Under the pieces are notes generated by a model. That model had not been told where the DNA came from, searched no databases, and saw nothing but the letters and a program-made list of their open reading frames with translations. From assembly GCA_012729815.1 (NCBI GenBank), contig JAAYCJ010000298.1:1-51465 (forward strand): a stretch of DNA of 51,465 bases, read 5' to 3'. Source of the stretch: Phycisphaerae bacterium. Lineage in GTDB: Bacteria; Planctomycetota; Phycisphaerae; JAAYCJ01. Each line of letters begins with the position of its first letter. Within the stretch, counting starts at the first letter, position 1. Below, one piece after another: positions 7,411 through 49,446 of this stretch. A program made the position numbers and the translations under genes.

Positions 7411-7430
7411 CGGCGGACAGGAATGAGACG

Positions 7431-7464
7431 TGGCGAGGACGAGGGCTTCGTCCTCGCCATTTTT
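7431..7464 (+). terminator. Rho-independent terminator
   Basis: TGGCGAGGACGA (7431-7442), GGGCT loop, TCGTCCTCGCCA (7448-7459), followed by TTTTT (7460-7464). It closes the PEP-CTERM gene ending at 7410. Confidence 0.9.
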
Positions 7465-7547
7465 CAACACGGATGGTAGGATGGGCAACGGGAAAGGGCT
7501 TCAAGGGCTTCGGCCAAAGGACAAGCCGTGAAGGGTGATCGGTAGAC

Positions 7548-8594
7548 GTGGCGAAATCGGAATCGGCTGGCAAGTTGAATTTGTCGTTGATCGCCCGGGA
7601 GTCGGGGGTCAGCAAGATGACGGTCAGCCGCGTGCTTCGCAGCGAGAGCAACGTCTCGCCGGAGACGCGGCGGGCGGTTTTACAGGTCGCTGAGCGGATG
7701 GGTTTTGTCCCATCGCGCCCCCGTCGGCCGCGGTCGGACCTGGGCCACTACTACATCCTCTTTCAGCAGAGCTATTCGGTCAACGACGCGTATTTCAGCG
7801 GGATCATTCTGAGCATTCAGAACGCCCTGTTCGACCACGGCTGCGGCTGCTCGTTCGGCATCATCACCGAGGAGTACGGCGATTTCGTCAAGCTCAACGC
7901 GCTCATGAAGGGCCGCGAGGTCAGCGGGGTGTTCGTGATCGGCGAGATTCCCGCGCGCGACGCCAACATGCTTCTGGGGAGTTTTTCGGACATTATTTTC
8001 ATCGATTATCCGGGCGGTTCGACGCTCGACTACCCGTACAACGCGATCACGACGGATAACGTCTACGGCGGCCATCAGGCGGTTCGGCACCTGCTGGACC
8101 TGCGGCGTCGGCGCATTTTGCTGCTGGCCGGGCGGCAGGGCCATTACTTCACGAACGATCTGCTGCGGGCCTATCAGGAGACGCTGGCGGAATACGGCAT
8201 GGCGTTCGATCCGGGCCTCGTGCGGCATGGCGACTTCCATACCGACAGCGGATACCGTCAGGTGGCTGACGCGCTGGCTGAGGGTCTGTCATTTGACGCG
8301 ATTTTTTCCAACGACGAAATGGCCTGCGGGGCCATGCGGGCGCTGTGCGAGGCGGGACGGTCGGTGCCCGACGAGGTGTCGATCGTGGGTTTCGACGGGC
8401 TTCCGGCGACCCGGATGGTCACGCCGCGTCTGACGACGGTGGCGGTGGATCGGGAGAAGATGGGCCGGCTGGCCGTTCATCGGCTGCTGTCGTTCGAGGA
8501 GGACTCGGCGGTAACGGCCCCTTACGAGAAGATATCGTTGTTCCCCAAACTGATCGTTCGCGAGTCGACCAGCGAAAAGAGGACGGCGGACTAG
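7548..8594 (+). CDS. LacI-family transcriptional regulator
   Basis: A 348-residue LacI/GalR regulator starting with GTG at 7548; AAGGGTGA lies 10-17 bases upstream. The helix-turn-helix is LNLSLIARESGVSKMTVSRV with LRSESNVSPETRRAV, then the hinge, then a sugar-binding-type core ending with FDAIFSNDEMACGAMRAL and VPDEVSIVGFDGLPATRMV. It is the first gene after a terminator and reads into the large enzyme cluster that begins at 8727, so it is the likely local regulator of that cluster. The effector is unknown. I did not find a strong palindrome in the 132 bp before the next gene. Confidence 0.93.
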   Translation: MAKSESAGKLNLSLIARESGVSKMTVSRVLRSESNVSPETRRAVLQVAERMGFVPSRPRRPRSDLGHYYILFQQSYSVNDAYFSGIILSIQNALFDHGCGCSFGIITEEYGDFVKLNALMKGREVSGVFVIGEIPARDANMLLGSFSDIIFIDYPGGSTLDYPYNAITTDNVYGGHQAVRHLLDLRRRRILLLAGRQGHYFTNDLLRAYQETLAEYGMAFDPGLVRHGDFHTDSGYRQVADALAEGLSFDAIFSNDEMACGAMRALCEAGRSVPDEVSIVGFDGLPATRMVTPRLTTVAVDREKMGRLAVHRLLSFEEDSAVTAPYEKISLFPKLIVRESTSEKRTAD

Positions 8595-8726
8595 TGCCGT
8601 TCATTTTCCGGTGATGACCGGGGCGTGACGGTTTCAACAGAACACACTCAAATCTGCATCAGACCTCATGAGACGCAACCGGAGCGATCCTGGCTGTTCC
8701 GGCTGTGCTGACGGAGAATGTGATCC

Positions 8727-9788
8727 ATGTCGCAATCGAGCAATCATCCCGAGACGGAGAACCGGTATCGCCGGCTTCTGGACTTGAAGGCAAAGGGCGA
8801 GGCGGTTCTGACGTTCGACCATGGCGTCGGGCAGGTGGCCTTGTGCCCCGATATGGGCGGCCGCGTGTTCGCTGAGTTGGCCGGGCGGTCGATGCACCGG
8901 ATCGACCTGGAGACCGTCGCCGATCCCCGCCATGCCTTCAACAACTTCGGCGGCGGGAACTTCTGGCCCGCGCCGGAAGGCGGCCGGTTCGCGTTCAACT
9001 ACCGGGGCGATGCGTGGTACGTTCAGCCGGTGATCAACTGTCAGCCGTTTGGCGTGGCGGCCCGCGACCGGACCGCCGCCACGATCGTCAAGGAGATCGC
9101 CCTGGTCAACCGCGGCGAGACGGTGCTCGACGTCGCGATGCGGCGGGAGCTGGCCGTGCTGCCGGATGCCCCGGCGCTCCTTCGCGGAGCGGCTTGCCAG
9201 GTGCTGTCGTACCGGACGGTCGATTCGTTCGAGGTGCGCGGCGAGGTCTCAGCCGAGGACGCCCTGATCGCCGCCTGGACGCTCGAGCAGTTCGACGCGT
9301 CGCCCGAGACGGTCAGCTTCGCGGTCGTCGATCAGCCGCGGGCCGCGATCAACTTCGACTACTACGACCATCCGCGCGAGCGGATTCGATTCCACCGACG
9401 CGGGTTCGTCTACCGGACCGACGGCCAATGCCGAGGCCAGATCGGCATCAACAGATCGGCCGGCACCAGTTGCGTGGGCTTCTACGATCTTTCCCGTCGC
9501 CTGCTGTGCCTGCGAGAGAACCGGAGCGATCCGCGGGAAGGCGTGTTCTTCAACATCGCCGACAACGATCAACCGGACGGGCCCTGGTCGGCGGTGGACA
9601 ACTACAGCATCTTCAACTCGGATCCGGACATGCGGGCGTTTGAGCTCGAGACGATCGGCTCGGCCCGCGTGGACGGCGGACGGCTGACCGGCTCGCAACT
9701 GGTTTCGGTCACGACATTCGCGATCTTCGAGCAGGCGGCGGACCTGGAACGATTGACGATGAAGATGCTGGGAGCGGCAACGAAGTGA
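8727..9788 (+). CDS. DUF6786-like / galactose-mutarotase-fold protein
   Basis: A 353-residue cytoplasmic protein with no signal peptide. It has the look of the DUF6786 family, related in fold to aldose 1-epimerases: an N-terminal GVGQVALCPDMGGRVF strand pair, then NNFGGGNFWPAPEGGRFAF, a block typical of that group, and a beta-sandwich pattern to the end with DNYSIFNSDPD. Mutarotase-fold proteins bind sugars and interconvert anomers or serve as domains of lyases. The exact reaction is unknown. It opens the enzyme operon; its stop TGA overlaps the GTG start of the next gene by 4 bp, so the two are translationally coupled. Confidence 0.65.
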   Translation: MSQSSNHPETENRYRRLLDLKAKGEAVLTFDHGVGQVALCPDMGGRVFAELAGRSMHRIDLETVADPRHAFNNFGGGNFWPAPEGGRFAFNYRGDAWYVQPVINCQPFGVAARDRTAATIVKEIALVNRGETVLDVAMRRELAVLPDAPALLRGAACQVLSYRTVDSFEVRGEVSAEDALIAAWTLEQFDASPETVSFAVVDQPRAAINFDYYDHPRERIRFHRRGFVYRTDGQCRGQIGINRSAGTSCVGFYDLSRRLLCLRENRSDPREGVFFNIADNDQPDGPWSAVDNYSIFNSDPDMRAFELETIGSARVDGGRLTGSQLVSVTTFAIFEQAADLERLTMKMLGAATK

Positions 9789-10849
9789 CACCGCGTCAAC
9801 GGATCATCGAGGCCATGAGCCACCGCAGGCCCGATCGTGTGCCGCGATACGAGATCTTCCTGCCGGGTTACGTGGACCGGTGGCGGCGATCCAAGGGCAA
9901 AGGCCCGGACGCCGACGTCTACGACGCGTACGACCGGATCGACATCGGAACCGTGCTGGCGATGCAGGAAGGGCCGCTGGGCAGCCGCGTGGAGAGGCGG
10001 GAAACGGACGGCGATACTTACTATCAGCGCGACAGTTGGGGCCGGTATCAGAAGTGCAGCCGCAGCGGCACGTTTTTCGAGGTGCTCGAGTCGGCGATCG
10101 CGGAGAAGTCCGACCTGGACGCCCTGCGGTTCGAAGACCCATGGACGGCCGATCGTACGGCGATGTACCGGGAGTGGGAGCGCCGGGCCTCCGAGCGGTT
10201 CTGCCCGGTCAGCGGAGTGATGGGCCTGTTCATGTCGTCGTACTACCTTCGCGGCGAGTTCGAGCTGCTGGTTGACCTGAAGGAAGACGAGGCGTTCTGC
10301 CGGTCGCTGGCTGAGCGGGTCGCCAGGTTCCTGGCCGCGGCGGGCGAGAAGGCGCTGGAGGTGACGAACACGGGCGAGACGGCGATCTGGGTGTACGACG
10401 AGCTGGGCAACAACCAGTCGTCGCTCATCTCGCCGCAAACGTTTGAGCGGGTCTATCTTCGGGCGTACCAGGCGATGATCGGGCGGTGGAAATCGCGCGG
10501 CCTGAGGAACGTGATCCTCCACTGCGACGGCAACTGCCTGCCGCTGATCGACCTGCTGATCGAAGCCGGGTTTACGGGGATTCAGGGCGTGAATCCCTCA
10601 GCGGGGATGACCGTCCCGGCGGTCAAGGCCAGGTACGGCGACCGGCTGGTGCTGATCGGCGGGATGTGCAATATCCACGTGCTGACGCAGGGAAGCCGCG
10701 ACCAGATCGCGCGCCAGGCGGCGGAGATTGTCGAGGCGGCCCGCGACGGCGGCGTGATTATCGGGACGCATTCGATCGATTCGGACATTCCGGTTGAGAA
10801 CTACGATTTCTACCATTCGACGTTGAAACGATTGGACGAGACCTTTTAG
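9785..10849 (+). CDS. URO-D superfamily protein (methyltransferase-like), divergent metal site
   Basis: A 354-residue TIM-barrel protein of the uroporphyrinogen decarboxylase superfamily, beginning TPRQRIIEAMSHRRPDRVPR, the common start of the MtaA/CmuA-like branch. These proteins usually move methyl groups between corrinoid proteins and thiols and bind zinc through His-X-Cys and a later Cys. Here the expected H-X-C reads LHCDGN (H-C-D), and the region usually holding the last Cys reads HSIDSDIP, so the standard zinc set is missing. The real heme enzyme is unlikely given the sugar-operon setting. It may use other ligands or another chemistry. It starts with GTG inside the stop of the previous gene. 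Confidence 0.8.
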   Translation: MTPRQRIIEAMSHRRPDRVPRYEIFLPGYVDRWRRSKGKGPDADVYDAYDRIDIGTVLAMQEGPLGSRVERRETDGDTYYQRDSWGRYQKCSRSGTFFEVLESAIAEKSDLDALRFEDPWTADRTAMYREWERRASERFCPVSGVMGLFMSSYYLRGEFELLVDLKEDEAFCRSLAERVARFLAAAGEKALEVTNTGETAIWVYDELGNNQSSLISPQTFERVYLRAYQAMIGRWKSRGLRNVILHCDGNCLPLIDLLIEAGFTGIQGVNPSAGMTVPAVKARYGDRLVLIGGMCNIHVLTQGSRDQIARQAAEIVEAARDGGVIIGTHSIDSDIPVENYDFYHSTLKRLDETF

Positions 10850-10873
10850 CATTCTGATGCAAGGAGACAGGTT

Positions 10874-12040
10874 GTGGCGTATCTGAACAGGCAGGAACGT
10901 GACGCGCGGCTGGAGAAGGTCAAGGCGATCATGAAGGCCGGGGACCTTGATGCGGCGCTGGTGTACTACGACGAGTTCAACATCGGCAACGGCTGGTACC
11001 TGACCGGCTGGTGCCCGCAGTTCGAGAGCGGGATGGTGCTGGTCGGCCGGAACGGCGAGCCGATGATTCTGGGCGGCCCGGAGAGCGAGCCGTTCGCCAA
11101 GCTCGACAGCGCGATCACCGAGACCCGCAACTTCCCGGTGTTCATGGTTCCCGATGAAGAGTACCCGAACGCGACGATCACCGATTTTCCGGCTTTGTTC
11201 GCGGAGCTCAAGTCGAAGCTGGGGGCCGTCCGGCGGATCGGGCTGGTCGGAGCGGGCCGGATGCCCGCGGACTGCCACAAGCAGATCGTCGAGGGGTTTG
11301 CGGGCGTGGAGATGATCGACATCACGCAGGCATTCGTCGAGCTGCGGTACGCCAAGTCCGCGTGGGAGCGCGAGCAGATCCGGGCGGCGTTCGCCCTGGC
11401 TGATCAGTGTTACGAGGCGATGAAGGCGAAGATCGCAGCGGGCGTCTCGGAGATCGAGGTGGCCGCGGCGGGTGAGTTCGCCGCCCGCAGCCGCGGGGCC
11501 AGCGGCTTTGGATTCAGCGCGATCGTCGGCAGCGGCGCCCGCTCCAACGCTGTGGTGCCGACGGCAAGCTCGAAGAAGCTGGCGGCGGGCGAACTGGTGA
11601 TGATCGGGATCGCCCCGAAGGTCCAGGGCTACGCCGGCGTGGTCGGCGACGTGCTGCCCATCAGCGGCGAGTACACCGCCAAGCAGAAGGAATGCATCCG
11701 GCACCTGAAGGAAGCGTTCCGGCTGACCAGACAGCAGCTTGCCGCGGGCAAGGTGGGCAAGGAGATCGACGCGCCGGCCCGGGCGTATTTCGCCAAGCAC
11801 GACCTGTCGAAGTACCTGGTGTGCCCGTTCGTCCACACGATCGGACTGCACGAGGCGGAGGCCCCCTTCTTCGGCCCCAACAGCACCGACGTGCTGAAGC
11901 CGGGCATGACGGTGTGCGTGGACGTCAGCTTCTTCGGCCACCCGGAATTCAACGGCACGCGGATCGAGACCGGCTACGAGATCACCGACACCGGCGCGGT
12001 GGCGATGAGTCCGAAGATGGATCGATACTTCACCGCGTAG
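10874..12040 (+). CDS. M24 'pita-bread' family protein, creatinase-like, metal ligands mostly lost
   Basis: A 388-residue protein with GTG start after AGGAGA. Residues of about 10-150 form the creatinase/prolidase N-terminal domain, and about 160-388 the pita-bread catalytic domain. In M24 metallopeptidases five residues (D, D, H, E, E) bind two metals. Here they correspond to G245, V256, H321, D350 and E365, so both Asp are absent and one Glu is Asp. His321 (HTIGLHEAEAP) and E365 (RIETGYEI) remain. Creatinase, which hydrolyses creatine without metals, shows the same kind of loss. I infer a metal-independent C-N hydrolase or a non-catalytic relative rather than an aminopeptidase. It sits between URO-D and glycosidase genes. 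Confidence 0.85.
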   Translation: MAYLNRQERDARLEKVKAIMKAGDLDAALVYYDEFNIGNGWYLTGWCPQFESGMVLVGRNGEPMILGGPESEPFAKLDSAITETRNFPVFMVPDEEYPNATITDFPALFAELKSKLGAVRRIGLVGAGRMPADCHKQIVEGFAGVEMIDITQAFVELRYAKSAWEREQIRAAFALADQCYEAMKAKIAAGVSEIEVAAAGEFAARSRGASGFGFSAIVGSGARSNAVVPTASSKKLAAGELVMIGIAPKVQGYAGVVGDVLPISGEYTAKQKECIRHLKEAFRLTRQQLAAGKVGKEIDAPARAYFAKHDLSKYLVCPFVHTIGLHEAEAPFFGPNSTDVLKPGMTVCVDVSFFGHPEFNGTRIETGYEITDTGAVAMSPKMDRYFTA

Positions 12041-12072
12041 CACAGCCGTCGGCGGCGCAAGGAGACGGTTCG

Positions 12073-14253
12073 ATGACAACCCAATCCGATCTGCCGGTGG
12101 GGAGCCATCCGGCGGCACTGGAGTTCGATCACTTTCCAACCCGCCAGCAGGCGGTGGTCTGGCGGAACTGGGAGATGGTTCCGCTTGGCCGGCTGGCGGC
12201 GCTGCTCGGCGCGAGCGAGGATAACGTCCTGGCGCTGGCGGCGGGCATGGGCCTGCGGACGCCGCCGAAGGTGAATCCGCGCTGGCTGGAACGCGGGTAC
12301 GTGACGATCATCCGCAACAACTGGCATCTGCTGCCGTACGATCAGTTGCTTGAGCTCCTCGGATGGTCAGCGGAGAAGATGGACTTCTCGCTGCGGGAAG
12401 ATGACTTTTTGTTCTGCAAGCTCGGCGGCCTCAAGCCGCGGTGCGAGCCGGTTCGCTATTCGTCGCTGACGGCTGACCAGCAGGCGCGGACGGCGGAACT
12501 GCGGTCGCGGGTCGAAAAGCACTTTCCCCAGAGCGAGGGGTCCGAAGAACCGCCGTTCGCCTTCGTCGACCGCTACCAGACCGCGTCTGGCGGACTCACC
12601 GCGACGAAGGCTTCCAGCCGTTTCGACCTGCGGCTGATCTATCCGTGGTTCGCCCTTTACGGCGATCCGCTGCTGGACCCGCGGCTCGATCCGTTTCCGG
12701 ACGGGTTGCTGGAGTCGCTGGCGGCGATGGGAATCAACGGCGTCTGGATGCAGGGCGTGTTGTACACGCTGATCGAGTGGTCGCCGGCGCCGGAGATGTC
12801 GGCTGGACATGAAAAACGCATCAAGACTCTTCGCGCCCTCGCCAAGCGGGCTGAGAAGTACGGAATCGGCTTATACCTCTATCTGAACGAACCGCGGGCG
12901 ATGCCGTTGAAGTTCTTCGACCGCCATCCGGAGTGGAAAGGCGTGGAATACGGCCAAGCCGGCGTGGCGACCACGTGCACCTCGCATCCGCCGGTGCTGG
13001 AGCTGCTTGCCCGAAACACCGAGGCGCTGTTCCGCGCGGTTCCGGAGCTGGCGGGCGTCTTTACGATCACGATGTCCGAGAACCCGACCAACTGCTACGC
13101 CCAGATGCGAGGCAACGAATGTCCCCGCTGCGCCAAACGGTCGCCGGAAGAGGTCGTAGCCGAGGTGAATGGCGCCATCGAGGAAGGCGTTCATCGGGCC
13201 AAACCCGAGGCCCGGGTGATCGTCTGGAACTGGGGCTGGCATCCGTTCGTCGGCGTTGAGGGCGCCAAGCGGATCGTGGACCGGCTGCCCGCGACGGTGG
13301 AACTGATGTGCACCAGCGAAGAGGCCATGCCCACCCACGTCGGCGGCGTGGACGGCTCGATTGTTGACTATTCGATTTCGCAGGTCGGGCCGGGCGAGTA
13401 CGCCAGAGACCTCTGGCGGCACGCGATCGGCCGAGGCCTCAAAGCGGTCGCCAAGGTCCAGGTAAACAACTCGTGGGAGTGCTCAGCCATCCCGTACATT
13501 CCCGCCGTCGACCTGGTTGAGACGCACCTGGACCGCCTGACCGAGTGCGGCGTAACCGGGCTGATGGCCAGTTGGACGCTCGGCGGGTATCCGGGCGGCA
13601 ATCTCGAACTGCTCTCGCACTCGTCGGAAGAACTGGCGGTCCTGAAGTTCGGCCCGGAGGCGGCGCCGTTGGTCCGCAAGGCGTGGTCGCTCTTGAGCCG
13701 GGCGTTCACGGAGTTCCCCTTCGATTGCGGCGTACTCTATCGCGGACCGCAGAACGCTGGTCCGATGAACCTGCTGTGGGCCGAACCGACCGGCTATGGA
13801 TCCACGATGGTCGGATTTCCCTATGACGATCTGACCGGCTGGCGCGGACCCTATCCGGAAGACATCTTCGAGAACCAGCTTCGCCAACTCAGCGAGACGT
13901 GGAAGAAGGGTCTGGACGAGTTGGATCAGGCCAACCGGATCATCGACCCGGAGCACCGGGACAACCTGTCTGAGTTAATCCGCGTCGCGACCGGAGTCTA
14001 CTGCCATTTTCGCAGCGCATACCTTCAAACGGCCTTCGTCCGGCTCCGCGACGGCAATCTTACGGACAGAAGACGGAAAATGCTGGCGGCCCTCGATGAG
14101 GAGATCGAGGTCGCCAAGGTGCTTCACCGTTTGGCGATGACGGACGCCCGGATCGGGTTTGAGGCCACCAACCACTACGCCTATACGCTGAACGACCTGA
14201 AGGAAAAGGTCGTCAGTTGCGAAGCCCTTCTTGACGGGCTCGGCAAGGATTGA
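12073..14253 (+). CDS. Large TIM-barrel glycoside-hydrolase-like protein with duplicated N-terminal helical motif
   Basis: A 726-residue protein without signal peptide; ATG at 12073 follows GGAGACGGTT. Residues of about 20-120 hold two similar units, WRNWEMVPLGRLAALLGASE and RNNWHLLPYDQLLELLGWSA, each followed by a short acidic helix. From about 180 the sequence reads like an (alpha/beta)8 glycosidase: FDLRLIYPWFALYGDPL, MGINGVWMQGVLYTLIEW, YGIGLYLYLNEPRAMP, GVFTITMSENPTNCYAQM, VIVWNWGWHPF, with a helical C-terminal tail. A Cys pair (NECPRC) follows the fourth strand block. The substrate is unknown; the GH20/GH-A-like resemblance is only general. It lies 32 bp after the M24 gene and 4 bp before the next gene. 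Confidence 0.7.
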   Translation: MTTQSDLPVGSHPAALEFDHFPTRQQAVVWRNWEMVPLGRLAALLGASEDNVLALAAGMGLRTPPKVNPRWLERGYVTIIRNNWHLLPYDQLLELLGWSAEKMDFSLREDDFLFCKLGGLKPRCEPVRYSSLTADQQARTAELRSRVEKHFPQSEGSEEPPFAFVDRYQTASGGLTATKASSRFDLRLIYPWFALYGDPLLDPRLDPFPDGLLESLAAMGINGVWMQGVLYTLIEWSPAPEMSAGHEKRIKTLRALAKRAEKYGIGLYLYLNEPRAMPLKFFDRHPEWKGVEYGQAGVATTCTSHPPVLELLARNTEALFRAVPELAGVFTITMSENPTNCYAQMRGNECPRCAKRSPEEVVAEVNGAIEEGVHRAKPEARVIVWNWGWHPFVGVEGAKRIVDRLPATVELMCTSEEAMPTHVGGVDGSIVDYSISQVGPGEYARDLWRHAIGRGLKAVAKVQVNNSWECSAIPYIPAVDLVETHLDRLTECGVTGLMASWTLGGYPGGNLELLSHSSEELAVLKFGPEAAPLVRKAWSLLSRAFTEFPFDCGVLYRGPQNAGPMNLLWAEPTGYGSTMVGFPYDDLTGWRGPYPEDIFENQLRQLSETWKKGLDELDQANRIIDPEHRDNLSELIRVATGVYCHFRSAYLQTAFVRLRDGNLTDRRRKMLAALDEEIEVAKVLHRLAMTDARIGFEATNHYAYTLNDLKEKVVSCEALLDGLGKD

Positions 14254-14257
14254 AGCC

Positions 14258-15298
14258 ATGTGGATGGGCTGGAGCAAGACGTTCGGCGAACCGTTGGCAG
14301 CACCCCTAACGCTGAATTTCCTGCCGTCCTGGTGGTATCGGCAATACGGGATCTCTCACGGCGAACGCGTCTTTCGGGACCCTGAATTTCGAGCCGCCAC
14401 GCAGCGGGAAATGCACCGGTTGGTCTATGACCGGTTCAAGGACCTGGGGTTCGGTCAGGAGGACCCTCCGCTGGTGTATTGTGCCGATCATTTGGGCAAT
14501 GCCACCATGCCCGCGATGCTGGGATGCGAGGTGAGATTTGCCGACGACCAGTACCCGGTGAATAACCCGCTGCCGATGGACGTCTTGCGGCGACTGGCCG
14601 TACCGAAAGATATCACCCAATCGTTTCCTTTAAACGATATTCTCGGGCAGGAACGGCAAATCGCTCAAAAAACCGGCAGCCGGGTGGACTTGATCTGGCC
14701 GACCCAGGGAGTTCAGAATATTGCATTATTGACTCAGGGATCAGATTTCTATACGGAATATTACGAAAACCCCGAATGGGCCGGACGCCTTCTCGACGTG
14801 TCCTGCGATTTGATTATCGCGATACTGGAGTACCAGAAATCAAGAGGCCAGGAGCTGATGCTCTTCAGTCACCAGAACTGCACGGTGGAGTTGTGCGGCC
14901 CAAAGGTATACCGGGAGTTTCTGCTCGCCTACGATCTGAGGCTGTATCGTACCGCTGCGAGATTGGGGTGGAAGTACAACATCCACCACTGCGGAGTATT
15001 CGATGCGTTCGCGGAATTATACCGGCAAATCGGGCCGCTGGATTCGATCCAGGTCGGCTGGGGGTCGGATTTGCGCCTGGCTCTCGACACGTTTCCCGAG
15101 GCCAAGGTGGATTATATCATCAGCCCGACGTTTCTGCACGATGCCGATCCCCGCGCCATCGCCGACCGGGTTCGCGGACTGGTGGACGCCGCGGGCGGCG
15201 ATCTTGCCCGTACATCGTTTACCGTCTGCGACGTGGAAGACGGAACCCCGGACTCCAGCATCTTCGCCGTTGCGGAGGCGCTCGCGGGGCGAGGCTGA
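14258..15298 (+). CDS. URO-D superfamily protein (methyltransferase-like)
   Basis: A 346-residue protein. I choose the ATG at 14258 (MWMGWSKTFGEP), four bases after the preceding stop, with AAGGA just upstream. The barrel carries an H-H-C motif (NIHHCGVFDAF) and a later Cys (FTVCDVEDGTPD), which fit the His-X-Cys...Cys zinc set of MtaA/MtbA-type methyltransferases. It also has LMLFSHQNCTVELCGP, unusual for a decarboxylase. Such enzymes transfer methyl from a methyl-corrinoid to coenzyme M or tetrahydrofolate. No corrinoid protein gene is nearby. It is the second URO-D paralogue in the same operon, so the pair may act in sequence. Confidence 0.8.
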   Translation: MWMGWSKTFGEPLAAPLTLNFLPSWWYRQYGISHGERVFRDPEFRAATQREMHRLVYDRFKDLGFGQEDPPLVYCADHLGNATMPAMLGCEVRFADDQYPVNNPLPMDVLRRLAVPKDITQSFPLNDILGQERQIAQKTGSRVDLIWPTQGVQNIALLTQGSDFYTEYYENPEWAGRLLDVSCDLIIAILEYQKSRGQELMLFSHQNCTVELCGPKVYREFLLAYDLRLYRTAARLGWKYNIHHCGVFDAFAELYRQIGPLDSIQVGWGSDLRLALDTFPEAKVDYIISPTFLHDADPRAIADRVRGLVDAAGGDLARTSFTVCDVEDGTPDSSIFAVAEALAGRG

Positions 15299-15328
15299 TC
15301 AACCGGAACAGGGCCGAGGGGAATACCC

Positions 15329-17197
15329 ATGCCGTACCAAGGCAGTTTCGACAAGCGAACCGTTCCCGACACGCTGGACCTGGCCGACCGGGCCGAGTTG
15401 GCCCTCAACGGGATCGGCGGCTGCATCGATCCCCAACTGCATCACATGATGTTCTTCCACGTCTTTTACACGTGCCGAGAGCCGTACATGCGGCATCACG
15501 GCGCGGACACCACTTGCGATCCAAAGTTCGCCGAGTCCTTTCCGATGATGCGGGTCATGTGCGGAAGCAGCCTGTACCGCGACGTCGAATCCGCCCAGAT
15601 GGACGATCTGCTCTCGCGCATCGACGACGGCCTGTACTGGAACCGATACGAGCCCTCGCGGCCGTGGTACAACTCGTACAACCCGGACTTCGACGGCGTG
15701 CGCAAGAACGAAGACCTGGCCATGCCGGGCGCCGCGGGACGAATGGTCCGCACCCTGGCGACCTGGCGCGAGCTCGATGGCAACACGGGCCGGGACAGGT
15801 ACATCCGTGAACTGGTGGATGGGCTGTTCCGCATCGCCGTCCACCGCAACGCCTACAGCTACTATCCCGACGGCGGGTTCGGCGAGCCCTTCAATTATCC
15901 CCGCTCCGGATGGATCCGGACCGACGAACCCAAGAGCGAAACCGAGGGCGGCGAGGGCGCGGTCACCGCCTTTCAGGCCCATCAGATCCAGGGCCTCTGC
16001 CGCTGGTACGCCGCCAGCGGCGACCAGAAGGCACTGGACCTGGCCGGGCGATTGACCCGATTCTGCATGTTGCCGAAGTTCTGGGGCGGCCTTCCCGATC
16101 CGGAGGGGAACCGCGAAGGCCTCGCCGGACAGGCCATTCCGCATAGGCCCGACCCGGTCGGCGTGGCCGGCCACGAGCAGGGCCACTGGTTCAGCCATTT
16201 CCATGCCCGTGCGATCACGCTCCGCGGCGTCCTCGAGTACGCCATGGCCGTCGGCGATCAGCGCATCCTGGAATTCGTCCGCCGGGCGTACGAGTACACC
16301 CTGACCTTCGCCATCCCGCGGATCGGATGGTTCAACTGCTTTCCCGGACGGCTCAACGTCTGCGAAGGCTGCGCACTGGGCGATATGGTGGCCCTGGCCA
16401 TACGCCTCACCGATGCCGGCCTCGGCGATTTCTGGGACGACGTGGACGCGGTGGTCCGCAATCATCTGGTCGAACAACAACTGATCGACGCGAGTCTTCT
16501 GGAGCGGGTGGCGGCTCATAGCTCCGAGCGGCCGCCCGAAGACCACAGCCGGTATCCGGGACAGGAGACGACCGACAACGTCATCCAAAGAAGCCTGGGC
16601 GTCTTCGCGGGGCTCTCGACGCCCGTGTCCATTCCCGGGCCGTGGATCATGCAGTGCTGCACCGGAAACGCCTCCCAAGGGCTCTACTACGCGTGGGAAG
16701 GGATCGTCCGCCGCTCCGGCGACTCGGCCCAGGTGAATCTGCTGCTCAACCGGGCTGATCCATCCCTGGACATCGACAGCTACCTTCCGCATGAAGGAAA
16801 AGTCGTCATTCGGAACAAGACCAACCGAAGAATATCGATCCGCATCCCTTCGTGGGTGGACCGTAAGGAGATACGCACGCATGTCTCTGGAAGGCCGCGT
16901 CCTTCCGAGGACTGGGTGGGAAATTTCCTCGTCTTTGACGATCTGAAGCCAGGGAATGAGATTTGCATCGATTTCCCGATCCGCGAAACCGTCGCGAGCT
17001 ACACCGCCAACTGCCGGACACCGATGGAACAGACATACGCCTGCAGATTCCGCGGCGGCACGCTCGTGGACATCTCACCCCGCGACGACTCGCCCACGAG
17101 CTATCCTCTGTATCAACGCGACCTTCTCCGAAACGACAAAACGCCCATGAAGAAGAAGAGACGCTTCGTTCCTGAGAAAACAATCCTTCACTGGTAA
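15329..17197 (+). CDS. GH127-like (beta-L-arabinofuranosidase-type) glycosidase
   Basis: A 622-residue cytoplasmic enzyme. Helical (alpha/alpha)6 barrel up to about residue 450, then beta-sandwich modules (VVIRNKTNRRISIRIPSWVD), the GH127/DUF1680 architecture. The GH127 zinc-cysteine site is recognisable: E346-G-C348 in VCEGCALGDM matches the family E-T-C, and C443-C444 in MQCCTGNASQG match the family CC pair. In the known family a Cys acts as nucleophile held by zinc. It is somewhat divergent, so the substrate may be another furanoside or uronide. AGGGCCGAGGGG lies before the ATG. The last 20 residues are Lys/Arg-rich. Confidence 0.75.
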   Translation: MPYQGSFDKRTVPDTLDLADRAELALNGIGGCIDPQLHHMMFFHVFYTCREPYMRHHGADTTCDPKFAESFPMMRVMCGSSLYRDVESAQMDDLLSRIDDGLYWNRYEPSRPWYNSYNPDFDGVRKNEDLAMPGAAGRMVRTLATWRELDGNTGRDRYIRELVDGLFRIAVHRNAYSYYPDGGFGEPFNYPRSGWIRTDEPKSETEGGEGAVTAFQAHQIQGLCRWYAASGDQKALDLAGRLTRFCMLPKFWGGLPDPEGNREGLAGQAIPHRPDPVGVAGHEQGHWFSHFHARAITLRGVLEYAMAVGDQRILEFVRRAYEYTLTFAIPRIGWFNCFPGRLNVCEGCALGDMVALAIRLTDAGLGDFWDDVDAVVRNHLVEQQLIDASLLERVAAHSSERPPEDHSRYPGQETTDNVIQRSLGVFAGLSTPVSIPGPWIMQCCTGNASQGLYYAWEGIVRRSGDSAQVNLLLNRADPSLDIDSYLPHEGKVVIRNKTNRRISIRIPSWVDRKEIRTHVSGRPRPSEDWVGNFLVFDDLKPGNEICIDFPIRETVASYTANCRTPMEQTYACRFRGGTLVDISPRDDSPTSYPLYQRDLLRNDKTPMKKKRRFVPEKTILHW

Positions 17198-17210
17198 CCA
17201 GGAGCACCGC

Positions 17211-19289
17211 ATGTGGTACCACACCAGCTATCGCCGAAACCTGATCGACATGCACATTCCCGACTGGAACGAGGAGTTCCTCTCGCGGTTTGACCCGAAG
17301 ACCTACGTCGACATGCTGGAGCTTGGGCGGGTCGATACGGCGTACATCTACTGCACCTCGTGCCTGGGCCTCTGCTATTGGCCGACGAAGGTCGGCAAAA
17401 TGCACGCCGGACTCAAGGGCCGCGACATCCTGGCCGAACTGTTTGCCCTCTGCAAGCAGCGCGGCATCCAAGCCGTCGCCTACTACAATAACTGGTCGCG
17501 CTGGGCCGTCGAGAACCACCCCGACTGGCGGTTTGTTTCCGTCGACGGCCGAAGCACGCTCGAATACCTGGACAAAGGCCACTACGGCGCCTGCTGCCCC
17601 AACTCGCCCTACCGCGACTTCGTCGTCGCCCAGATCCGCGACCTGTGCAGCCGGTACGAATTCGTCGGCATGTGGTTCGACATGGGCATGTGGCCCTTCT
17701 CGGTCTGCTACTGTCCGCACTGCCAGGCCCGATACGAAAAGGAAGCCGGCGACGGACCCCTGCCGCGCGTCCAGGACTGGAGCGATCCGCGCTGGCGGCG
17801 GTTCGTCGAGCAACGCAACGGGTGGCTGGCCGAGTACACGCAGCTCCTGACCGACACGGTCAAGGCATGCAACCCAGCCCTCTCCGTCGCCCACCAGGGC
17901 GCCGGATGGACCCAGGGCTGGGTGACCGGAACCTGCCAGGGCTACTTCGCCGCCGGCGACTATGCGGGCGGCGACTTCTACGGAACCTTCGCCGACCATT
18001 CGATGGCCTGCAAGCTCCTGGCCAACCTGACGCCGAACAAGCCATTCGAGTACATGACCTCGCGCTGTCCGGACCTCTCCGAGCACACCACGCTCAAACC
18101 CGTCGAGCAGCTCCGCACCGAGATCGCCATCACGCTGGCCCACAACGGCGCGTTCTTCGCCATCGACGCCATCGACCCGCGCGGCACGCTCGACCGGCGG
18201 GTCTACGAGATGCTGGGCACGCTCTTCGCCGAAGTCGAAAGCTATGAGCCATTCCTCGACCGCGACAATGAACTGTGTCAGGACATCGCCGTCTACCTGA
18301 ACTTCGAGTCGCTGACCGATTGGGCGGCAAGCGGGAAGACAGTGACGGAGTGGATCGCGCCCGCGCCGCAGCTCGAGGATATCCGCCTGCTGGGCCGGGC
18401 CCTCACCGAAGGCCATGTCCCCTTCGGCTGGATTACCGACAGGAACCTTGGCGAACTGGACCGCCACCGGGTCATCCTGGTGCCGGACTTCGTCGAGCTC
18501 ACCAGCCGCGAAGCCAAAGCCTTGCGCGACTTCACACACGCCGGCGGCGCGGTCGTCGTCTTCCGCGGGCGCCGCAACCTCGGACCCGGCGCCGATCCGC
18601 AGACCCGCCAGATTCTGACGGACATGCTCGGCGTCGAGCACCTGGGCGAAACCGCCGACTGCGCCACGTACGTCGCGCCGACCGAAGCCGGCCGGCCGCT
18701 GCTGGCCGAGCAGAGCGCCGATTATCCGCTCGCCGTCAACGGCCCGCACAGCAAGATACACCTCACCGGCGACGCCGAAACGCTGGCAACGATCGTCCTG
18801 CCGTATACCGACCTCTCGGATCGCAACAGGTTCGCCTCAGCCATCAGCAATCCGCCGGGCGTCCCGACCGACCTGCCGGCCATCGTCAGGGCCCGATGCG
18901 GAAACGGGACGGCCGTGTTCGTCTCCGGCCAACTCGAACGCGCCCGCTTCGAACCGCAGCGGCGCACGCTCATCCGCCTGGTGCGGTCGTTGCTCGGGCG
19001 ACCCGCGACGTTCGAGACCGACGCGCCGCGGGCCGTCGAACTGACCGCCCTGCACAACCCAGCCAGAAGGCGCTACACCGTCTGCCTGGTGAACCAGCAG
19101 GAAACCCTGCCGGCGGTTCCCGTCGCACCGATTCACGTGACGCTGTGTGTCGGCGCGCAGCGTGTCGCGCAGGTGCTCAAGATGCCCGAGCGCCAAACGG
19201 TAGCCTTCGAGCAGCGGGCCGATGCGGTGCGCTTTGCCACAACCCAATTGGACGTCTTCCTGATGTACCAGATCGAGCTTCAGGAGTAG
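17211..19289 (+). CDS. GHL6-like TIM-barrel glycosidase with beta-galactosidase-trimer-like domain
   Basis: A 692-residue protein with no signal peptide. Residues of about 1-340 form a TIM barrel resembling 'hypothetical glycosyl hydrolase 6' and GH29-like proteins: GIQAVAYYNNWSRWAVENHP, FVGMWFDMGMWPFSVCYCPH (candidate catalytic Asp in WFDMGMW) and a Cys cluster C-Y-C-P-H-C. About 400-600 resembles the GH42 trimerisation (Rossmann-like) domain, with HRVILVPDFVELTSREAKAL and a GGAVVVFRG strand. The end is a small beta domain. I infer an intracellular exo-glycosidase, substrate unknown. AGGAG precedes the ATG, 13 bp after the GH127-like gene. Confidence 0.75.
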   Translation: MWYHTSYRRNLIDMHIPDWNEEFLSRFDPKTYVDMLELGRVDTAYIYCTSCLGLCYWPTKVGKMHAGLKGRDILAELFALCKQRGIQAVAYYNNWSRWAVENHPDWRFVSVDGRSTLEYLDKGHYGACCPNSPYRDFVVAQIRDLCSRYEFVGMWFDMGMWPFSVCYCPHCQARYEKEAGDGPLPRVQDWSDPRWRRFVEQRNGWLAEYTQLLTDTVKACNPALSVAHQGAGWTQGWVTGTCQGYFAAGDYAGGDFYGTFADHSMACKLLANLTPNKPFEYMTSRCPDLSEHTTLKPVEQLRTEIAITLAHNGAFFAIDAIDPRGTLDRRVYEMLGTLFAEVESYEPFLDRDNELCQDIAVYLNFESLTDWAASGKTVTEWIAPAPQLEDIRLLGRALTEGHVPFGWITDRNLGELDRHRVILVPDFVELTSREAKALRDFTHAGGAVVVFRGRRNLGPGADPQTRQILTDMLGVEHLGETADCATYVAPTEAGRPLLAEQSADYPLAVNGPHSKIHLTGDAETLATIVLPYTDLSDRNRFASAISNPPGVPTDLPAIVRARCGNGTAVFVSGQLERARFEPQRRTLIRLVRSLLGRPATFETDAPRAVELTALHNPARRRYTVCLVNQQETLPAVPVAPIHVTLCVGAQRVAQVLKMPERQTVAFEQRADAVRFATTQLDVFLMYQIELQE

Positions 19290-19299
19290 GAGACCGGCC

Positions 19300-20187
19300 A
19301 TGAACGCCCACGACGCCAACACCATCATCCTCAGCTTCGACATGGAGCCCGATCTGGGTTCCTGGACGTCCGGCCAGCGCGGCATCCGCGAAGGGACGCC
19401 GGAGATACTGAACGTGCTTCGCCGCCAGGGCGTGCCAGCCACGTTCCTGTTCACCGGGCGCGAAGCCGAGCATAACCCGGATATCGTCGCGCGGGTCCTC
19501 TCGGACGGCCACGAGATCGGCTGTCACACCATGTTCCACGAGACGCTGGGCAACGCGGTCTTCCAGATGCCCGGCGACAGCCCCGTCCTCGACGCTGAGA
19601 TTCCCGGCCGCCTGGCGCTGGCCACCGATACGGTCGAACGTATCGCGGGCGTTCGGCCGGTCTCGTTCCGCGCGCCGCGGCTATTCGGCTCGACGACGAT
19701 GGTCAACGCGCTGGAGGATCTGGGCTATCGGATCGACTCCTCATATCCCGCCTACTTCCACGGCAGCGACTTCCGGCCGTACCATCCGGACGCCGACGAC
19801 TGGGCCAGACCCGGAAACATGCGCATCGTCGAATTGCCGCTGTTCTACGACACCGACGCCGTGACCGACGATCCGCTGCGCCGCAGCGGCGATCAGTGGC
19901 CTCAGCTCCGGCTCCACGGTCCAAACGCCTTCGCCGACCTGTGTCGCCGGATGTTCCCTCGGGCGCGAAACGCCCAGGGCTGGTCGGTCCTGTGCGTCTA
20001 CTTGCATCCGTGGGAGTTCGTGACGATCCCCGAGGAACTGACCACCGACGAGGCGACGATCCGCTTCAAACCGTTTTTGCACAAAAACACCGGACGTCCT
20101 GCCCTCGAAGGGCTCGATGCTTTCATCGAAATCATGAAGCGGGAAGGCGCCGCCTTTGCGATGATGAAGGATCTTCGGCTGGACTGA
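19300..20187 (+). CDS. Polysaccharide deacetylase (NodB-like)
   Basis: A 295-residue carbohydrate esterase family 4-like protein. The first strand carries SFDMEPD, the D-x-E form seen in cytoplasmic or EPS-type deacetylases rather than TFDDGP. The metal-binding histidines follow in HEIGCHTMFHE. The third motif is FRAPRLFGSTTMVNAL, and VYLHPWEF supplies the late His. Such enzymes remove acetyl groups from sugars. AGGAGA overlaps the stop of the previous gene, so it is the last member of the plus-strand operon. Absence of a signal peptide suggests it acts on imported oligosaccharides. Confidence 0.85.
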   Translation: MNAHDANTIILSFDMEPDLGSWTSGQRGIREGTPEILNVLRRQGVPATFLFTGREAEHNPDIVARVLSDGHEIGCHTMFHETLGNAVFQMPGDSPVLDAEIPGRLALATDTVERIAGVRPVSFRAPRLFGSTTMVNALEDLGYRIDSSYPAYFHGSDFRPYHPDADDWARPGNMRIVELPLFYDTDAVTDDPLRRSGDQWPQLRLHGPNAFADLCRRMFPRARNAQGWSVLCVYLHPWEFVTIPEELTTDEATIRFKPFLHKNTGRPALEGLDAFIEIMKREGAAFAMMKDLRLD

Positions 20188-25240: not shown

Positions 25241-25996
25241 CTATCGGCGTCGCCTGCGAAGCAAGGCGAGCCCAGCGACTCCCAGGAGCGAAAGGGTCGC
25301 CGGTTCGGGAACAACGATCTCGCTGTTGGTCCAGCGGAGATGGGTCAGTTCCGCCTCACCCAGCACGGCCTCGTTATTGCGGCCGAACTCCATCCGGTTG
25401 CGGACCGTGGTGGTGCTGTAGCGTTTGCCCGAGTGGGTGAGCAGGACCTCCGTGCCGCCGTCCAGGTAGACGTTGCTCTCCAACGTGGCGGCGTCAATGG
25501 TGATCCGCCAGTCGTGCCAGCCCTCGTCAAACGTCGCGACCAGGTCGTTGTTACCCTCCAGCTTGATCGTGTCCTTGCTGAACTGGTAGGTCCACATCTG
25601 GCTTCCACCGGTGGCCAGCGGCCGATAGACGCGAAGGTGGAACTGCAAGACGTCCGAAGTCAACGTGGTGTCCATCGTGTTCAGGCGGAAGTCGATTGTG
25701 ACCTGATCGGCCGCCGTCCCACTGCCGGGACCATAGTAGATCCCGCCGTTGTTGCTGGCGTCCATGTCCATCCATAGCGTTGGATTGCCGCCGTCACCCG
25801 TGGCGTCGATCGACCCGGCCATGCCGCCGTTGGTCCAGGCCGGCGTGGCGACCGTCGGCAGACCCACCGAGGCGCTGTACTGCCCTTCCCACCCGGCTGC
25901 GGGGGCCGGCCAGGCGGCATCGGCCGCTCGCGGAACCGCCAGGCAAGACACCAGCAGACACGCCGACATCCAGAACTGCATCGAAACCCTGCTCAT
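25241..25996 (-). CDS. PEP-CTERM protein with LamG-like domain (paralogue of the fusion protein)
   Basis: A 251-residue secreted protein; ATG at 25996 with AAGGAGAGG upstream. The signal peptide is at residues 1-28 and a LamG/concanavalin-like beta-sandwich follows (about 28-225), with DEGWHDWRITIDAAT and VYLDGGTEVL typical of that fold. The tail VPEPATLSLLGVAGLALL plus RRRRR is an intact PEP-CTERM signal. The upstream gene copy at 22680 has the same domain but lost the tail. LamG folds often bind glycans. It has its own promoter, two LacI-type operators and a terminator. Longer in-frame extensions upstream run through the promoter and are rejected. Confidence 0.88.
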   Translation of the reverse strand: MSRVSMQFWMSACLLVSCLAVPRAADAAWPAPAAGWEGQYSASVGLPTVATPAWTNGGMAGSIDATGDGGNPTLWMDMDASNNGGIYYGPGSGTAADQVTIDFRLNTMDTTLTSDVLQFHLRVYRPLATGGSQMWTYQFSKDTIKLEGNNDLVATFDEGWHDWRITIDAATLESNVYLDGGTEVLLTHSGKRYSTTTVRNRMEFGRNNEAVLGEAELTHLRWTNSEIVVPEPATLSLLGVAGLALLRRRRR

Positions 25997-26037
25997 TGTC
26001 CTCTCCTTCCGCACTAAAAGGTGCTCCACTACCAGAC

Positions 26038-26051
26038 TGCCATCGTTGGCA
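26038..26051. promoter_or_regulatory. LacI-type operator (copy 3)
   Basis: TGCCATCGTTGGCA, the reverse complement of copies 2 and 4, centre at 26044/26045, again 48 bp before the ATG of its gene. Confidence 0.75.
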
Positions 26052-26129
26052 CATAGAGACCCAAAAAAAGCTCGCGATATGGCTTGCGTTGCACACGCGA
26101 TGAGTACGCCCAGAGACAGGTATTCCATA

Positions 26130-26143
26130 TGCCAACGATGGCA
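26130..26143. promoter_or_regulatory. LacI-type operator (copy 4), overlapping the -10
   Basis: TGCCAACGATGGCA, identical to copy 2, centre at 26136/26137, 92 bp from copy 3. It abuts the -10 of the promoter at 26143-26171. Confidence 0.75.
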
Positions 26144-26171
26144 TTGTATCAAGAAGTGCTTAGCGATGCAA
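26143..26171 (-). promoter_or_regulatory. Promoter of the PEP-CTERM paralogue
   Basis: Minus strand: TTGCAT (26171-26166), 17-base spacer, TACAAT (26148-26143). Both hexamers and the spacing are the same as in the promoter at 25021-25049, while the spacers differ. Confidence 0.7.
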
Positions 26172-26257
26172 ATCTTTTTCCGCTGCTCCCCCGCCCGTCC
26201 GCCGGGCGGATGGACAAAGACCGGTGGCGCGGCCGCAAGCGCATAAACCATAGGAAG

Positions 26258-27262
26258 TTACGTGGTCTCCCGGATGACGAGCGTGGGGCGGACCGCCGGA
26301 GACCATCCCCCCTCGGGCGGTCCCTGGTTGTGGATTTTTCGCAGCAGGAGCTCGCCGACCACCTGCCCCAGTTCCTCGTTGGGCTGCTTGACGGTCGAGA
26401 GCGGCGGCGAGGCAAACCGGGCGGCGCGGCGGTCGTCGAAGCCCATCACCGCGATGTCATCGGGAACCCGGATGCCCTGTTTCTGCAGGAAGTACATGAA
26501 CGACATCGCCAATTCATCCGAATAGGCCTGGACGGCGTCGGGAAGAGGCCACAGCCGGGCCAGGCTCTCAACCGCCATCCGGCCCGCCTCCCACTTGTCC
26601 AGATCGCTTTCGATGGGGACAACCATCTCGGGCAACTCATGCTTTCGCACAGCCCGCTGATAGCCTCGAAGCCTGGCTGAGGCACCCCGATAGCTCTCGA
26701 CGCGGCCGACGTAGGCCACGCGCCGTCGGCCCGTGGAGACCAGGTACTCGACGGCGTCGAAGACCCCGCTCTCGCGGTCGGTCCGCGGCGAGTCCATCCG
26801 CGGGTCTTCCGAATCGATGAACAGGAACGGGAGCTGGGCCTCTTCGAGTTGCCGCGCCCAGCACGCGTCATCGAGCGGCGGGCGGGAGATGACGGCCACC
26901 GCGGCGGGCCGGCGGTTCCGCAGTTCCTCCACCACGTGCTCGACGTCCGCGGGCGTTCGCATCGGGTCGAACAGAAGGGTCATGCAGTAGTCGTGCTTGC
27001 GGACCAGCGTCTCGAGGGCGCGAAGCTTCTCCATGTGGATCTCGTCGTGCGTCCACGAGATCACGGTGATCTCGAAGCTCCGCTGCTCGCGGAGGCTCCT
27101 GGCGTAGCGGTTGGGCCGGTATCCGAGCCGCCGAATGACCTCGTTGACGCTGTCGCGGGTCTCGGGACTGACGTACCCGTTGTTCTTGATGACCCGGGCC
27201 ACCGTTCGGATGGACACCTTGGCCGTATCGGCAATGTCTTTGAGGCTGGGCGATGTCTTCAT
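26258..27262 (-). CDS. LacI-family regulator, candidate owner of the TGCCAACGATGGCA operators
   Basis: A 334-residue LacI/GalR protein: PSLKDIADTAKVSIRTVARV and KNNGYVSPETRDSVNEVIRR (helix-turn-helix), YRPNRYARSLREQRSFEITV (hinge), then the effector domain with PDAVQAYSDELAMSFMYFLQ and VPDDIAVMGFDDRRAARF. It lies between the operator-bearing PEP-CTERM genes and the ThuA/ABC-transporter genes, all on the same strand, and all but ThuA have the operator directly upstream. That makes it the best candidate regulator. The RBS before the ATG is weak (GATGATGTAAA). A separate promoter and a hairpin are upstream. Confidence 0.92.
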   Translation of the reverse strand: MKTSPSLKDIADTAKVSIRTVARVIKNNGYVSPETRDSVNEVIRRLGYRPNRYARSLREQRSFEITVISWTHDEIHMEKLRALETLVRKHDYCMTLLFDPMRTPADVEHVVEELRNRRPAAVAVISRPPLDDACWARQLEEAQLPFLFIDSEDPRMDSPRTDRESGVFDAVEYLVSTGRRRVAYVGRVESYRGASARLRGYQRAVRKHELPEMVVPIESDLDKWEAGRMAVESLARLWPLPDAVQAYSDELAMSFMYFLQKQGIRVPDDIAVMGFDDRRAARFASPPLSTVKQPNEELGQVVGELLLRKIHNQGPPEGGWSPAVRPTLVIRETT

Positions 27263-27293
27263 TTTACATCATCATAATTCATATCAGTCACGT

Positions 27294-27319
27294 TGCCCGC
27301 ATCGCAAACAATGCGGGCA
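27294..27319. promoter_or_regulatory. Nine-base inverted repeat in the leader of the LacI gene
   Basis: TGCCCGCAT (27294-27302), 8-base loop, ATGCGGGCA (27311-27319). It starts just after the predicted +1. It may be an auto-operator or an mRNA hairpin; it also lies 72 bp past the ThuA stop and could serve as a terminator stem, though without a T run. Confidence 0.45.
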
Positions 27320-27332
27320 TGATTTTATCACT

Positions 27333-27361
27333 ATTATATCTGATTTTGCCCGGTAAAGGCA
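27333..27361 (-). promoter_or_regulatory. Promoter of the LacI gene at 26258-27262
   Basis: A perfect TATAAT on the minus strand (27338-27333) with TTGCCT 18 bases upstream (-35, weaker). It gives the regulator a transcript separate from the transporter operon. Confidence 0.55.
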
Positions 27362-27390
27362 AAGGCGATCGCAGCGACATTCGGCTGCGC

Positions 27391-28074
27391 TTATCCGGAT
27401 GTTCGCGTGGCCCACAGCAGGCCGCGCTCGACGATGGCCAGGGCGGTCGGCTCGTCAAAGTCCTTCTCCGTATGTCCCCAGCCGGCGACAAAGACGCGGC
27501 CGTCGCCCCACGTCCGCGTCCAGGCGTAGGGCATGACCACGCCCGGCGGATACAGGCCCGGCGTGCCGTATTCTCCGGAAAAGGTCGTCGTGGCCAGCAC
27601 GTGTACGCCCGGATCGACGATCATGTAGTACTGTTCGGTGTCCTGCAGCTCGAAATCCGGCAGGCCGCGCGTGATCGGATGGTCGCGATCGACGATGTTG
27701 ACCGCGTGGCTGGGGATTTTGGTGTCCGGGCCGCAGCCGGGATGGGCCACGAACTGGCCGCCGGTCATCCACTGGTACTTGGGATTCGACCGCCACGAAT
27801 CGACGATCCCGCCGTGAAAACCGGCCAGGCCCACGCCGCTTCGGACGGCGTCGGAAAGCCCCTTGCCCTGCTCAGCGGTGAAATCACCCAGCGTCCAGAT
27901 CTGCAGGATCAGGTCCAGTGACGCGAGGAAATCCTTGTCCGCATAGACCTCCAGCGTCGTTCGCGGATGGACGCGATAGCCCTGTTTCTCCAGAAAGGGA
28001 ATGAAGACCGCTGCGCATTGTTCGGGCCGATGGCCCTCGAATCCGCCGTAAACCACCAGTGCGTTTTTTGTCAT
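27391..28074 (-). CDS. ThuA-like protein
   Basis: A 227-residue protein of the ThuA (trehalose utilisation) family, a class I glutamine-amidotransferase-like fold. Hallmarks: NALVVYGGFEGHRPEQCAAV at the start, a GVGLAGFHGG turn, MTGGQFVAHPG, and the HPITRGLPDFELQDTEQYY block. The usual length is 210-280. ThuA proteins take part in oxidation of disaccharides to 3-keto derivatives, with the exact step still debated. It follows the ABC permease gene by 54 bp on the same strand, so it probably handles a sugar brought in by that transporter. AAGG lies about 10 bases before the ATG. Confidence 0.88.
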   Translation of the reverse strand: MTKNALVVYGGFEGHRPEQCAAVFIPFLEKQGYRVHPRTTLEVYADKDFLASLDLILQIWTLGDFTAEQGKGLSDAVRSGVGLAGFHGGIVDSWRSNPKYQWMTGGQFVAHPGCGPDTKIPSHAVNIVDRDHPITRGLPDFELQDTEQYYMIVDPGVHVLATTTFSGEYGTPGLYPPGVVMPYAWTRTWGDGRVFVAGWGHTEKDFDEPTALAIVERGLLWATRTSG

Positions 28075-28128
28075 GATTCACAAGACCTTCGCATATCCGT
28101 CATTGACATATCAGTGTCACCATCCAAT

Positions 28129-49339: not shown

Positions 49340-49373
49340 GGTTCTCTCCTTGCGGTTTCCTGTGTCGATCTGT

Positions 49374-49402
49374 ATTATACAAAATGGATATAATGAGGCC
49401 AA
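49374..49402 (-). promoter_or_regulatory. Promoter of the URO-D gene at 48332-49339
   Basis: Minus strand: TTGGCC (49402-49397), 17-base spacer, perfect TATAAT (49379-49374). The -10 lies in a 21-bp inverted repeat (ATTATA 49374-49379, TATAAT 49389-49394). Confidence 0.6.
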
Positions 49403-49446
49403 AGGTAAATTATCCAAAATGGATGAAATTTTTATTCAATTTGGAT
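49377..49446. repeat. Three 13-bp sites like ATCCAAAATGGAT
   Basis: ATACAAAATGGAT (49377-49389), ATCCAAAATGGAT (49412-49424, a palindrome apart from its central base) and ATTCAATTTGGAT (49434-49446). They cover the -10 and upstream region of the URO-D promoter. Spacing of start points is 35 and 22 bp. They look like operators of one regulator. Confidence 0.55.

Follow-up and report, generated by a model that had tools for sequence, protein, structure and literature searches.

What substrate could call for an operon in which two URO-D proteins and a creatinase-like protein are encoded among putative glycosidases and a deacetylase? The question is raised by a contig of a Phycisphaerae bacterium (JAAYCJ010000298.1, assembly GCA_012729815.1), analysed over its whole stretch of 51,465 nucleotides, hereafter called the window. 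The original prediction made on this DNA had proposed a pathway removing methyl or N-containing groups from decorated sugars.

Organization of the operon

The operon spans positions 8727-20187 and consists of eight co-directional genes on the plus strand. They are located behind a gene encoding a LacI regulator, which ends 132 bp ahead of the first of them. At the junctions genes either overlap by 4 bp or are spaced by 4-32 bp. The close-packed, co-directional arrangement behind LacI is thus as originally described, and all eight genes are found in this span.

7548-8594, plus strand: LacI-family regulator (Pfam LacI 5e-15, Peripla_BP_3 4e-29)
8727-9788, plus strand: DUF6786 protein (Pfam PF20583, 3e-26)
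9785-10849, plus strand: URO-D1, HxDGN motif, without Zn-Cys ligands (Pfam PF01208, 3.6e-12)
10874-12040, plus strand: M24 protein, metal-free, creatinase/prolidase fold (Pfam PF00557, 1e-31)
12073-14253, plus strand: TIM-barrel glycosidase-like protein with a helical N-terminal region, hereafter TIM (assigned by fold)
14258-15298, plus strand: URO-D2, HxC...C Zn-type motif (Pfam PF01208, 7.9e-14)
15329-17197, plus strand: GH127-like protein (GH127M 0.0032 and catalytic domain 0.025, both below cut-off)
17211-19289, plus strand: GHL6 / GH42-like glycoside hydrolase (PF14871 3.5e-20, PF02638 5.9e-9)
19300-20187, plus strand: CE4-family (polysaccharide deacetylase-like) enzyme (PF01522, Polysacc_deac_1, 2.7e-21)

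Pfam matches sustain the labels formerly given to the URO-D, M24, GHL6, deacetylase and LacI genes, and identify the first gene, left without a name in the original prediction, as encoding a DUF6786 protein. The GH127 label is weak, because the two Pfam GH127 domains score 18 and 14 bits vs cut-offs of 24.2 and 24.9. No signal sequence was seen, reading by eye, at the N-terminus of any of the eight operon proteins. A cytoplasmic location is consistent with this.

The operon resembles 40 other stretches of the genome in tetranucleotide usage (correlation 0.95) and GC content (64.0% vs 63.8%). Contamination of the MAG was rejected, as the window fits the rest of the genome in both respects. Inverted repeats of at least 8 nt, sought as a LacI operator in the interval 8585-8740, were not found. 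Upstream of the LacI gene (7424-7466), an inverted repeat of 19 nt accompanied by a short stretch of T is likely the terminator of the preceding gene. A tRNA-Ala called by ARAGORN within the DUF6786 gene (9662-9745) was treated as a probable false positive. Further along the window, the minus strand carries sugar ABC transporter genes (25241-31560; SBP 30277-31560, permease 28129-29379), along with a second LacI gene (26258-27262) and a gene for a PEP-CTERM protein. The transporter is a possible import route for the operon substrate.

Conservation of the gene set

The full eight-gene set was not found in a second genome, whether the anchor was TIM (294 genomes of the phylum), M24 (101 relatives), URO-D2 (198 genomes of Lentisphaeria and 343 of the phylum) or the GH127-like gene (198 genomes); GHL6 and CE4 were not used alone as anchors. 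In the phylum sample, none of the other operon genes was found near close TIM homologues. A described pathway with this gene set was sought in the literature and none was found; the original prediction likewise knew of none.

Besides the present genome, Lentisphaeria, Kiritimatiellia and a Spirochaetes MAG share a core made of LacI, M24, CE4, TIM and DUF6786, of which M24 is the constant member. GTDB genomes were scanned with a TIM alignment, and 80 of the 581 related loci detected were kept. M24 genes whose products are 74-79% identical to the window protein are located beside TIM in seven of the first 12 TIM-found loci, as well as in L084, and these loci often carry also CE4, DUF6786 and LacI. 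With M24 alone as query, orthologues at 68-79% identity were retrieved from 53 of the 198 genomes in the class to which a Lentisphaerae MAG belongs, and at 60-79% from 11 of 346 in that of a Kiritimatiellaeota MAG. The commonest order at Lentisphaeria M24 loci is LacI-M24-CE4-DUF6786-TIM, and the Spirochaetes MAG (L059) has the order M24-CE4-TIM-DUF6786. Conservation of gene order, proposed as a check of the original prediction, therefore holds across distant groups for LacI-M24-CE4-(DUF6786)-TIM, and fails for the eight genes taken together.

At 40 Lentisphaeria loci fetched by M24, homologues of LacI and CE4 are found within 5 kb of M24 in 22 and 18 cases, respectively, CE4 always on the same strand; TIM (10 loci) and DUF6786 (8 loci) are less frequent at this distance. 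Seven of these contigs end within 2 kb downstream of M24. DUF6786 homologues, 23-38% identical, occur additionally in L052, L054, L057, L059 and L061. CE4, LacI and DUF6786 are found in none of 64 control TIM loci lacking an M24 orthologue (Fisher p 2e-9, 6e-12 and 3e-4, respectively, values to be taken as a guide only, as controls differ from case loci in both taxon and anchor gene). The association of the core genes is not fortuitous, and about half of the operon is a module common to distantly related bacteria. At about half of the Lentisphaeria loci M24 stands alone or beside LacI only, which indicates that neither the glycosidase nor CE4 is required by it. URO-D1, URO-D2, GH127-like and GHL6 genes are found near none of the 40 loci, and are best read as local additions to the conserved core. 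The operon can thus be split into a conserved part and local additions, the URO-Ds included.

Some variants of these loci have features of their own. A RhaT sugar symporter is encoded between CE4 and TIM in a Kiritimatiellia locus (L298, 4070-7640, minus strand), in which TIM starts with a twin-arginine-like leader. Distant sister clusters (L043, L045, L046, L047 and L048) encode M24 and TIM proteins mostly 25-30% identical to those of the window; they include creatininase genes (L046, L048), an Amidohydro_2 gene (L047) and a LacI gene (L046).

The M24 orthologue is absent from 100 relatives, among which two others of the same family (best match 32%). In a tree of 53 rows, the window M24 is sister to a Kiritimatiellota sequence (support 98/95), and the pair falls together with Lentisphaeria-class rows in a group of six that has support as well (98/98). 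Outgroup branches are long and the root is unsure, the grouping itself being unaffected. This tree position points to lateral transfer of M24. On plasmids just three M24 matches were found, at 28-33% identity.

URO-D proteins and methyl transfer

The two URO-Ds differ at the active site. In URO-D1 and ten relatives HxD replaces HxC and there is no Zn-type second Cys, so that the zinc-ligand set is missing. A URO-D1 homologue (51% identity) adjoins TIM in a Verrucomicrobia MAG contig (L051). Another (70%) is found in a Sedimentisphaerales MAG (G381; L136, 3773-5019, minus strand), beside a LacI match limited to the HTH, perhaps a broken regulator gene. In URO-D2 the HxCG motif aligns to MtaA and the zinc-ligand pattern HxC...C is complete; the second Cys is taken from the motif CDxxxxxP, at which the multiple alignment is gapped. 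URO-D2 scores 38-42 bits against the MtaA/CmuA subfamily models, whose cut-offs are 235-244. Among the Lentisphaeria (198) and phylum (343) genomes searched, no close homologue of URO-D2 was found, the best other match being 33% identical.

The 5.5 Mb genome has 60 URO-D family matches, with several active-site classes, among them HxC...C, HxC...H/N and HxD. Most of the 47 that were aligned feature HxC with another third residue, a smaller group features HxD, and few have the full HxC...C. A URO-D of the window (48332-49417, minus strand) is strongly MtaA/CmuA-like, with 160-166 bits, below the subfamily cut-offs. Elsewhere in the genome a URO-D gene is adjoined by an MttB-family gene (L162, 6460-7875).

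The corrinoid genes whose presence had been set as a check are there: the genome encodes one stand-alone MtaC-type protein (C217), two RACo activators and an MttB homologue. Neither this check nor that on gene-order conservation refutes the original prediction outright, and the prediction is supported in part. A second B12-binding protein (C278) has no clear role. No corrinoid or activator gene was found in the operon itself. Together with the URO-Ds, this set makes methyl transfer possible in the organism. Judging from gene content, the parts for corrinoid methyl transfer are present, and nothing links them to the operon.

The URO-Ds could demethylate O- or N-methylated sugars, with a corrinoid protein from another locus as methyl acceptor, leaving the bare sugar to the glycosidases. 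The zinc-type motif of URO-D2, the corrinoid genes, the abundance of URO-Ds and the MtaA-like member in the same window agree with such a role. It is nonetheless unlikely, since URO-D1 lacks the Cys ligands, URO-Ds are absent from the surroundings of M24 at all 40 Lentisphaeria loci, and for 60 URO-D matches just one MtaC-type protein was found, encoded outside of the operon. The methyl part of the original prediction is weakened on the same grounds.

It is also improbable that unrelated sugar genes were gathered beside a mobile M24 module without sharing a pathway. Close relatives of URO-D2 and of the GH127-like protein are all but missing from the searched genomes (a GH127-like homologue, 48% identical, was found in G383), and the exact gene set is unique. 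However, all eight genes are tightly packed, with no gap exceeding 32 bp, and the order of the core is kept elsewhere.

The M24 protein and the proposed pathway

The five metal ligands of PepQ (D, D, H, E, E) correspond in the M24 protein to G245, V256, H321, D350 and E365. Asp or Glu never occur at positions 245 and 256 among the aligned orthologues, and the same two Asp are also missing in the distant sister M24 branch. Two of the five ligands are therefore lost, in keeping with the metal-poor site initially noticed; a third is altered from Glu to Asp (D350), and His321 and Glu365 are kept. The ligand set of M24 metallopeptidases (prolidase, aminopeptidase P) is incomplete, and the combination of creatinase fold and lost metal site is that of metal-free enzymes of the creatinase/DoeA type. 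Mean column identity among orthologues is 82% in a sample of 14 rows, which suggests that a precise function is under selection. Conserved residues include H321, E327, E329, D350, R363 and E365.

The AF2 model of the protein (pLDDT 88) was compared to known structures by Foldseek. Matches include prolidases, creatinase (1kp0, 1chm, 7yto; TMq 0.83) and the ectoine hydrolase EutD/DoeA (6twk), prolidases ranking ahead of creatinase by E-value. The ectoine hydrolase family models, with cut-offs of 575 and 613 bits, give it 28 and 21 bits. Among M24 proteins, creatinase and DoeA are enzymes that cleave C-N bonds without a metal, and Spt16 and Ebp1 are binding or regulatory members. Given the two lost ligands and a fold resembling prolidase, creatinase and ectoine hydrolase, the M24 protein is unlikely to be a peptidase, and likely to be a small-molecule C-N hydrolase.

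Scavenging of glycopeptides or cell wall, in which M24 would act as a peptidase on glycopeptide peptides after the glycosidase and CE4, is accordingly given little credit. The E-value ranking of prolidases would suit it, as would the M81/MlrC genes that immediately precede M24 at two loci of Kiritimatiellia (L302, 2760-4253; L303, 7935-9452); the damaged metal site, a feature of all aligned orthologues, argues against it. A non-enzymatic M24, binding or regulatory as Spt16 and Ebp1, is most improbable, because the very high conservation of the six residues listed above is typical of an active site, even if the metal site is gone and M24 often adjoins LacI with no core enzyme nearby.

DUF4838 is the sole Pfam echo of TIM (E 0.02), and at 14.5 bits it stays below its cut-off of 26.6, as does every other Pfam family. 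Its AF2 model (pLDDT 93.5) has GH67, GH20, GH89, GH115 and GH84 as nearest PDB folds by Foldseek, exo-hexosaminidases and alpha-glucuronidases among them, with low TM-scores (0.3-0.42). Three Glu (E273, E336 and E416, numbered from the ATG at 12073) and a Cys are invariant in 70 sequences. TIM is likely a glycosidase, as far as the model tells, and its family is far wider than the core module. The CE4 protein has the motifs of deacetylases, DMExD (D14/E16/D18), H76xxxH80, R124xP126 and H236, which are conserved in 13 aligned proteins save for one change of Asp14 to Ala in L214. It is 62% identical to its counterpart in L299, and about 40% to most CE4s of the module. A sugar-mutarotase-like role for DUF6786 is a guess. 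Searches of PDB sequences with URO-D1, TIM, GH127-like and DUF6786 proteins returned nothing useful.

The N-group part of the original prediction is favoured by the conserved CE4, by the metal-free M24, and by the creatininase and amidohydrolase genes of the sister clusters. The explanation that we prefer, though holding it at rather less than an even chance, is that the operon serves to break down an N-substituted sugar glycoside, under the control of LacI and probably in the cytoplasm. TIM, plausibly through E336 and E416, would free a terminal N-acetylated or uronic sugar, from which CE4 would strip the N-acyl group. In the product derived from this sugar, M24 would then cleave a C-N bond other than a peptide bond, as creatinase and ectoine hydrolase do. 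Anomers may be dealt with by DUF6786, and LacI would sense the product. Points against this reading are the loci where M24 lacks such partners, the breadth of the TIM family, the low TM-scores of TIM, the ranking of prolidases ahead of creatinase and the modest identity of the window CE4 to most others of the module. The local GH127-like, GHL6 and URO-D proteins may broaden the substrate range, possibly through demethylation. More tentatively, M24 may be a new metal-free creatinase-type enzyme cleaving a C-N bond of a sugar derivative. Together with CE4 and TIM it would make up a catabolic module not described so far, which moves laterally and has its centre in Lentisphaeria and Kiritimatiellia, with occurrences outside of these classes.

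An M24 gene about 75% identical across distant groups, devoid of the metal site and surrounded by sugar genes, probably marks a real, undescribed catabolic reaction. The annotation of such proteins as Xaa-Pro peptidases is suggested to be wrong. M24, CE4, TIM and LacI make a small expressible set for finding the substrate.

Each element can be set against known systems. MtaA and MtbA, soluble coenzyme M methyltransferases of the UroD superfamily (PMC10418091), share the URO-D fold with the window proteins, and URO-D2 keeps their HxC...C pattern; unlike them, the window URO-Ds score about 35-42 bits vs NCBIfam cut-offs of 235-244, and URO-D1 has no Cys ligands. CE4 polysaccharide deacetylases are matched by the window CE4 at every catalytic motif, but the latter has no visible signal sequence and has M24 as neighbour. 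TIM has the barrel and invariant Glu of DUF4838/GH163, GH20, GH67, GH84, GH89 and GH115 glycosidases, and differs from them by extra helical N-terminal and C-terminal regions (TM 0.3-0.42). PepQ and aminopeptidase P (M24B) are the best matches of the window M24 in both sequence and fold, from which it departs by the replacement of two Asp by Gly and Val/Ala, and of one Glu by Asp. Creatinase and the ectoine hydrolase DoeA/EutD share with it the two-domain M24 fold and the loss of the metal site (TMq about 0.8), whereas identity in fold alignments is 17-19%, and the window M24 belongs to clusters of sugar genes.
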